From NCBI GenBank assembly GCA_022775805.1, contig JALFKB010000032.1, positions 1-39,227 on the forward strand: a DNA stretch of 39,227 nt, written 5' to 3'. Numbering within the stretch: position 1 is the stretch's first letter; each line of letters opens with the position of its first letter. The notes under the pieces were generated by a model, which made no database searches, was not told where the DNA came from, and was given only the letters and a program-made list of their open reading frames with translations. This DNA comes from Clostridiales bacterium (GTDB lineage: Bacteria; Bacillota; Clostridia; Peptostreptococcales; Anaerovoracaceae). Positions 22,228 to 39,227 of this stretch are shown here, piece after piece. The position numbers were made by a program, and so were the translations under genes.

Positions 22228-22270
22228 AAGCTGTCTGCTGCATTTAAGCGGGCAGCTTATTTGTTTTGTT
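22228..22270 (+). terminator. Probable terminator after the LUD gene
   Basis: AAGCTGTCTGC (22228-22238) - tgcatttaa - GCGGGCAGCTT (22248-22258), then ATTTGTTTTGTT; the stem includes G:T pairs. Confidence 0.6.
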
Positions 22271-22275
22271 CATAA

Positions 22276-22600
22276 TGCATGGCTCATAATTGATGCCGTA
22301 GCTGTGATTGTTGAAGTATTTGATTTTGAGAAGAATTTGCTACAACATCAATGTGATTCAGGCAGCTTTGCAGGCCTTTTTTGGGGATGAATTTGAAGCA
22401 ATTTCATTCAGTGAAGAATTGCTGCAACAAAACTTGAAAAATGTTGAAGCAAATAAAAAAAGATAGACATCGCTTCAAAAACTGGAAAAAATTAGGCGAT
22501 AAATCCGTGCTATTTCAAGGGCTTGTTGAAGCAATTTTGAGTTGTCGCTGATTTTTACAACATCGCTACGACATAATTACAACATCGTCTGCTCAAATCT
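22276..22600 (+). repeat. Structured intergenic repeat copy A: alternating TTGAAGCAA / TTGCTTCAA motif series
   Basis: Forward-type motifs at 22311, 22393, 22444, 22526; inverted-type at 22337, 22419, 22470, 22552; same geometry as copy B at 39036 onward. Some motifs are degenerate. Confidence 0.8.
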
Positions 22601-22789
22601 TCTGTTGACCGGCGCGGTCCGTTAACCTCACATAGCTGCATGCCCGGATCCATGGAAAGAACCCCATGAGGAGCCGGAAACCGGCGAAAAGGACACAACG
22701 ACAAAGGTGTACAAGGAACGGAGGCTGAAACCCTTGAAAATGCAGGGTTTTACCCTCTAAAAAAATGTGAAATTAATTCAAAAAAATCC

Positions 22790-22818
22790 TTGATTTTGTC
22801 AGAGGGTTTTGTTATGAT
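22790..22818 (+). promoter_or_regulatory. Promoter of the S10 ribosomal protein operon
   Basis: -35 TTGATT (22790-22795), 17-nt spacer, -10 TATGAT (22813-22818), about 260 nt upstream of rpsJ. Confidence 0.7.
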
Positions 22819-22824
22819 GATATA

Positions 22825-23075
22825 GCTTGTGTAAGGCGAAGAAGTGGGAAGTTACCGCGCTATCGGAGAATTTCCACCGAGAATTGTCCCCACATGATCG
22901 GGGGCGAAGGGATTCGCTGAATTTTTCTTGTGCGTAACCAAAAGGAAACACACGAAAGAGTGTACGGAGTGTGCACGAGCAGGCAAAAACGCTCCAAACG
23001 CTTGAAAATTCAAGGCTAGAACCCCTTGTACAAGCATAGCGAAAACTGTACTAAAGCAAGTTATAGGAGGAAAAA
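22825..23075 (+). promoter_or_regulatory. ~250-nt structured 5' leader of the S10 operon
   Basis: GTGGG/CCCAC long-range pairing near 22845-22892; hairpin GCGAA-ggga-TTCGC followed by a short T run (22904-22926); palindromes CTTGAAAATTCAAG (23001-23014) and CTTGTACAAG (23025-23034). Confidence 0.5.
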
Positions 23076-38713: not shown

Positions 38714-38911
38714 CCGGGGTGCCGGTTGCCGGGGAAGCTTCGTCCTCGTCACCCGCAATGAGCCGCGCTCATTCGCAGCTCGCGGAAGGTCAGCAAAACT
38801 CGCGCCGGTGCGCTCAAACATTGCTGACCTTTAGCCGCTCCCCATGCTCATTTCGCTGGTCATTGCAGGGGCTCCTGCGGAAAGCGCTTCTCCCGGCACC
38901 CGGCACCCCGG
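38714..38911. repeat. ~198-bp GC-rich imperfect palindrome
   Basis: Outer arms CCGGGGTGCCGGTTGCCGGG / CCCGGCACCCGGCACCCCGG; inner arms AAGGTCAGCAA (38786-38796) / TTGCTGACCTT (38821-38831); partial complementarity in between. Confidence 0.75.
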
Positions 38912-39012
38912 CAAACACAAAAGCTGCAATGACGATGCAGTGCAGCAGCAGCGAGCGATGAAGAGCTGGAAACAATTGAAAGCGATGGAATAAATAGACG
39001 CGTTATCAGATA

Positions 39013-39227
39013 TGCGTGGCTCGTGGGCAGGATTGTTGAAGCAATTGCGACTGAGATGATTTTGCTTCAACATGAGCCTGATGTTGCCTGCATTTAAAGG
39101 CATTTCCGAGGTCAGATTTGAAGCAATTCCTAATTAAGAAAAATTGCTTCAACAAAATCAGAAAAATGTTGAAGCAAATGAAAAATGAGACTGATATTTA
39201 CAACAATTGGAAAATTTTAGGCGATAA
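39013..39227 (+). repeat. Structured intergenic repeat copy B (truncated by the window end)
   Basis: TTGAAGCAA at 39036, 39118, 39169; TTGCTTCAA-type at 39062, 39144, 39195 (degenerate); ends in TTAGGCGATAA as copy A does at 22492-22502. Confidence 0.8.

Follow-up and report, generated by a model that had tools for sequence, protein, structure and literature searches.

Upstream of the S10 operon of a Clostridiales bacterium, short motifs alternate in orientation along about 250 bp of intergenic DNA, and the question raised by this locus is what such an array is and what it might do. "The window" hereafter means the whole stretch of DNA that was analysed (39,227 nucleotides), which belongs to a 1.49-Mb MAG (G000; 139 contigs, 94% complete).

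Architecture of the repeat

The initial annotation had described eight strictly alternating motifs with spacings of 26, 56, 26, 25, 26, 56 and 26 nt and with 133 nt both between F1 and F3 and between F2 and F4; a motif scan of the window found them at those positions and in that arrangement. The array had been assigned to 22276-22600 and indeed lies there, but the element proper is slightly shorter (Table 1), with flanks that are unrelated between copies. We call this element family A, namely, a 255-bp non-coding intergenic repeat, whose window copy carries eight alternating TTGAAGCAA/TTGCTTCAA motifs. Its parts were delimited with an alignment of 21 copies (A1), 20 of which come from this genome and one from another genome (L038).

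Table 1. Positions of family A and of neighbouring features in the window
Feature	Position	Strand	Basis
Family A full copy: 133-bp unit apparently duplicated in tandem, with eight alternating 11-bp sites in all	22308..22563	+	nhmmer profile 2-255 of 255, 205 bits; alignment A1
Site F1, TGTTGAAGTAT	22309..22319	+	motif scan, alignment A1
Site I1, TTGCTACAACA, reverse motif	22337..22347	-	motif scan, alignment A1
Site F2, ATTTGAAGCAA	22391..22401	+	motif scan, alignment A1
Site I2, TTGCTGCAACA	22419..22429	-	motif scan, alignment A1
Site F3, TGTTGAAGCAA	22442..22452	+	exact 11-mer search, alignment A1
Site I3, TCGCTTCAAAA; other copies often TATTTACAACA here	22470..22480	-	alignment A1
Conserved asymmetric block, consensus TTGGAAAAATTTAGGCGATAAA	22482..22503	+	18 genome matches, all inside family A copies
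Site F4, TGTTGAAGCAA	22524..22534	+	exact 11-mer search, alignment A1
Site I4, TTTTTACAACA, alternative motif form	22552..22562	-	alignment A1
Second copy of family A, located downstream of rplQ and incomplete because contig C16 ends inside it	39033..39227	+	genome match, profile
Hairpin resembling an intrinsic terminator, which follows the LUD-domain gene and closely precedes the element	22228..22258	+	consensus scan only
Promoter-like TTGATT-17-TATGAT, ~230 bp past the element and ahead of rpsJ	22790..22818	+	consensus scan only; count not above shuffles

The spacing is symmetric about the element centre. The halves are direct repeats of 133 bp, and each of them contains an 11-bp site (consensus TGTTGAAGCAA) four times, as two inverted pairs. 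Also, the 56-nt spacers of the two halves are alike in the consensus (ATTTAGGC..ATAA..GGCC(C)TTTTTCAGGG); judging from these features of the consensus, therefore, the element seems to have arisen by tandem duplication of such a unit with two inverted pairs. Neighbouring sites in the same orientation are 82 and 51 bp apart, which are not whole helical turns, and there is thus no simple helical phasing of the sites. By consensus scans only, the window copy is placed between the terminator-like hairpin of the LUD-domain gene and the promoter-like site of rpsJ. Nearby, a 31-bp direct repeat (74%) of the AAACCCTTGAAAATGCAGGGTTT type was noticed at 22728-22758 and 22996-23026 of the window, with one unit upstream of the rpsJ promoter-like site and the other in the rpsJ leader.

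Family A copies across the genome

The 325-bp stretch covered by the initial annotation matches 25 places in the genome. When BLAST and pattern searches of the genome were combined with profile searches of fetched stretches, family A amounted to 24 full-length or large copies and about five fragments. The profile recovered 20 full-length copies, the copy downstream of rplQ and further large or cut copies on contigs C131, C21 and C1, and the fragments, with one to three hairpins, are found on C19, C54, C100, C106 and C134. The label "copy A" in the initial annotation had implied another copy in the window, and it turned out to be the one cut by the contig end. In the genome as a whole there are 88 exact occurrences of the 11-mer TGTTGAAGCAA and none of the reversed control pattern; the 88 fall almost entirely inside family A copies, and isolated sites elsewhere are nearly absent. 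The copies start at ATGTTGAAG and end at CAACAT, and their flanks are unrelated to each other except for a family B neighbour (described below) at some loci. The genome-wide search for the spaced motif thus revealed a fixed spacing kept among copies, not a random scatter.

By crude ORF calls, the copies are intergenic, with flanking genes that are in tandem, divergent or convergent. Among the proteins encoded beside them are TrkH, Iso_dh, PhoU-like, CoA transferase, PFOR, RelA/SpoT and GGDEF proteins; no functional theme was seen in the neighbouring genes examined. The location upstream of the S10 operon, while correct for the window copy, is hence incidental, given that other copies flank unrelated genes. 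These observations bear on the idea that the eight sites are classical transcription-factor operators regulating the adjoining genes. The intergenic location, with several copies between divergent genes, would fit such operators, but the neighbours lack a common theme, some copies have convergent genes on their two sides, the copies share their 255-bp layout and spacers by descent, and isolated sites outside the element are nearly absent; we therefore consider operators of this type very unlikely.

More family A copies than expected lie near contig ends: 14 of 29 are no farther than 500 bp from one, versus 9% expected, as on C16, C135, C59, C41, C90, C26, C97, C19, C134 and other contigs of the genome, suggesting strain variation or sequencing dropout near the copies.

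Conservation of sites and spacers

The dispersed copies of family A have a fixed length, and almost all of the resident ones have kept their sites far better than their spacers. Pairwise identity in A1 is 88% in the sites versus 54% in the other columns. Fitch counts of terminal changes per column on a FastTree tree of the 21 copies were about tenfold lower in the six best sites (0.37; 59 columns) than in the spacers (3.88), and on the same tree I3/I4 showed 1.14 and the TTGG..GGCGATA block 1.38. Also, pairs of copies at about 30% spacer divergence differ by only about 4% in their sites. Despite the diverged spacers, 19 of the 21 copies are equal in length, the exceptions being +2 and -10. If the repeat were neutral and decaying, each copy would show lost sites and new indels along the branch leading to it, and the resident copies thus appear to be under selection. 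Alternatively, gene conversion restricted to the family A sites may be at work.

The copies were found partly through the sites themselves, so that decayed copies may be under-sampled. However, no site-decayed relic was found through the site-independent TTGGAAAAATTTAGGCGATAAA/TTAGGCGATAAA block, all 18 matches of which fall in known family A copies. Contig C131 represents an apparent strain variant of the copy downstream of rplQ, in which the left end is deleted and two bases in I2 are changed; 4 of the 11 differences between the two are in sites. Site loss is hence tolerated at this locus. The sequence missing from C131 amounts to about 77 bp spanning the left end of the second copy (window 38966-39040 versus L017:115-130), as might result from deletion at a short match, GAAG.

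Recognition as DNA or as RNA

Since the 11-bp arms are able to pair, family A might instead be a structured RNA, with four or alternative hairpins acting in transcripts, for example, in leaders or at 3' ends. The RNA fold of one copy (L014) is indeed better than those of shuffled sequences (z -3.85), but the window copy is only modestly stable as a single-strand DNA fold (z -1.65). The check for covariation went against this reading: the arms do not covary beyond shuffles, with an RNAalifold covariation term of -0.05 on the family A alignment and no hairpin signal in mutual information. The named four-hairpin structure has 80.4% paired cells versus 80.7% in shuffled alignments, the loop columns just inside the arms of H1-H4 show no pairing beyond chance (p 0.58-0.995), and an extension of the central stem gave p 0.07. 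Moreover, I3 and I4 read GCTTCAACA in some copies and TTTACAACA in others, with no corresponding change in the partner sites F3 and F4, so that hairpins 3 and 4 are broken in most copies.

The mixed orientation and position of the copies relative to genes and the placement of the window copy between terminator-like and promoter-like sites also argue against a transcript-borne function, and no Rfam family scored above its gathering threshold, in agreement with the initial annotation, in which no known riboswitch explained the array. The same annotation had found no tRNA and no CRISPR layout; indeed, a tRNA/tmRNA search of the stretch was empty, and, unlike in CRISPR, the motifs alternate in orientation and the spacers are common to copies by descent. 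An RNA function is, in our judgement, quite improbable. Each arm is conserved as a sequence and not as one half of a pair, which points to recognition of the family A sites in duplex DNA. Among the readings first offered for the array, therefore, those of a binding array and of a (formerly) non-autonomous repeat have gained support, while that of a structured RNA has been weakened.

Mobility and resemblance to known repeats

If family A is a purely selfish, non-autonomous transposon (MITE- or REPIN-like), its sites would be recognised by a transposase or relaxase and kept only because intact copies replicate. The sharp ends, the unrelated flanks, the dispersal in one lineage with near absence from 48 congeners, and the modular fragments of one to three hairpins all fit this reading, and REPINs likewise have conserved ends with length-constrained spacers (PMC3116915). 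Terminal inverted repeats ATGTTG...CAACAT are found at nearly all copies, while they are short and imperfect. On the other hand, no target-site duplication was detected at the ends above shuffled flank pairing (p 0.22), and complementarity between flanks was not significant (p 0.085). The Y1/RAYT transposase (PF01797) had no match in this 94% complete genome, whereas 5 of 14 control genomes were positive. The best spacer identity among the 21 aligned copies is 74%, with no recent near-identical pair, so that the dispersal looks old; in addition, the sites have stayed conserved along long terminal branches, on which those of a dead insertion would be expected to decay. A purely selfish element is hence possible but somewhat doubtful. 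As to an autonomous insertion sequence with the same ends, no exact 11-mer sites were seen to bound a gene, and the sites occur almost only in family A copies and fragments (the search for insertion sequences covered Y1 only).

In its build, family A is most like the BIMEs and REPINs. BIMEs/REPs bind several proteins and have a proposed role in chromosome organisation, and REP units have a GTAG/GTGG-type tag at the palindrome foot (PMC2817692); REPINs are inverted pairs of a conserved short sequence with a spacer constrained mainly in length, and are extragenic, non-autonomous and RAYT-mobilised (PMC3116915). Like BIMEs, family A is intergenic and has short palindromic units regularly spaced in alternating orientation, but it has about 29 copies versus usually more than 100, in one fixed 255-bp format. 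Like REPINs, it consists of inverted pairs of a conserved short site with a length-constrained spacer and is extragenic and non-autonomous, but four pairs are fixed together, and near-identical copies are absent. Furthermore, the consensus of its unit in A1 (TGTTGAAGCAA) has no GTAG/GTGG-type tag, its spacers show no compensatory changes, which REPINs have, and its host genome yielded no Y1/RAYT transposase. Given these three differences, we do not file family A as a member of either class. MITE, BOX, RUP, RU and ERIC elements (PMC3049150, PMC2759123, PMC10969869) are also small, non-coding intergenic repeats of modular or inverted-repeat build, and MITEs share with family A the terminal inverted repeats. 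Compared with these elements, family A differs in having no target-site duplication, no parent insertion sequence (for Y1, the only type tested) and a site-specific constraint on resident copies, the sequence comparison being through Rfam only.

The reading that we prefer, at about even odds, is that family A is an old non-autonomous dispersed repeat, BIME- or REPIN-like, that is now kept as a putative multi-site protein-docking array on duplex DNA. Family A would have spread long ago in this lineage by a duplicative, non-autonomous route, and a sequence-specific protein would recognise its sites in the duplex, using them as a multi-site array located in the gaps between operons. The putative docking role could be nucleoid, topological or regulatory, as reported for BIMEs, and selection on the resident copies would keep the sites and their spacing.

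Distribution outside this genome

Among 49 genomes of the genus, this one included, a real family A element was found in only 1 of the 48 congeners (G055), at the same place and with the same score as in the genome of L040, which is apparently the same genome. Matches in two other congeners (G057 and G023) extend over 24-26 bp only, and those in G023 look like coding coincidences. When about 85,000 species genomes were scanned for exact matches to the central site pair, two real elements emerged, namely, a true family A element in MAG SUG1106 (L038) and a true but truncated one in MAG SUG1236 (L040); the remaining matches in the pattern scan of this collection are lone hairpins or coding matches. 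Each of the two genomes has a single detected copy on a short contig. Misbinning from the present species was rejected, in that the flanks have no species-level match to G000, but both contigs being short, misbinning from a third organism could have occurred. A literature search for the motif returned, among the matches listed at the top, unrelated primers only.

The repetition of the sites in both orientations also recalls replication, partition or recombinase site arrays (iteron-, parS- or att-like) brought in by integrated plasmids or phages. Such an origin is highly improbable: family A occupies about two dozen chromosomal loci, searches of 72,556 plasmids and of 50,697 phage records gave no match, and pattern matches in viral contigs were without the element. 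Also, most of the neighbours examined have ordinary roles in metabolism or transport, while one has a DnaB-like/HNH match.

A second repeat family and variation at rplQ

A second inverted-repeat family, family B (AATCACGAACTTTTTCC...TTTTTCGTGATT; about 241 bp), occurs at no fewer than 14 places in the genome (e.g., L011:249-489) and was not detected in the 48 congeners. As in family A, fixed conserved blocks are combined with variable loops. Nine of 14 family B places are within 107 bp of a family A copy (binomial p ~7e-13 versus uniform placement, which would be less extreme counting intergenic space only). It is tempting, though rather unlikely, that families A and B form a lineage-specific, chromosome-wide pair of coupled docking elements for a new nucleoid- or insulator-type protein system in Bacillota, which would have been recruited from a mobile repeat and would now be kept by selection per site with fixed geometry.

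Interspersed palindromic repeats are usually regarded as selfish or decaying DNA. About two dozen diverged family A copies keep their eight sites and spacing while the spacers drift, making domestication as chromosomal docking sites testable, and the near-absence in species of the same genus together with the co-location with family B provides a compact natural experiment.

Some further variation was noticed around these repeats. One family A copy is bracketed by two copies (98%) of a 65-bp family B right end (L011:426-490 and 863-927), and the CCCTTG..AGGG part of the 31-bp direct repeat near rpsJ resembles a family B block. After the rplQ terminator, the window has a GC-rich palindromic insert (family C, 38716-38890), while contig C131, the apparent strain variant of this locus, is without family C and thus represents a natural empty site.
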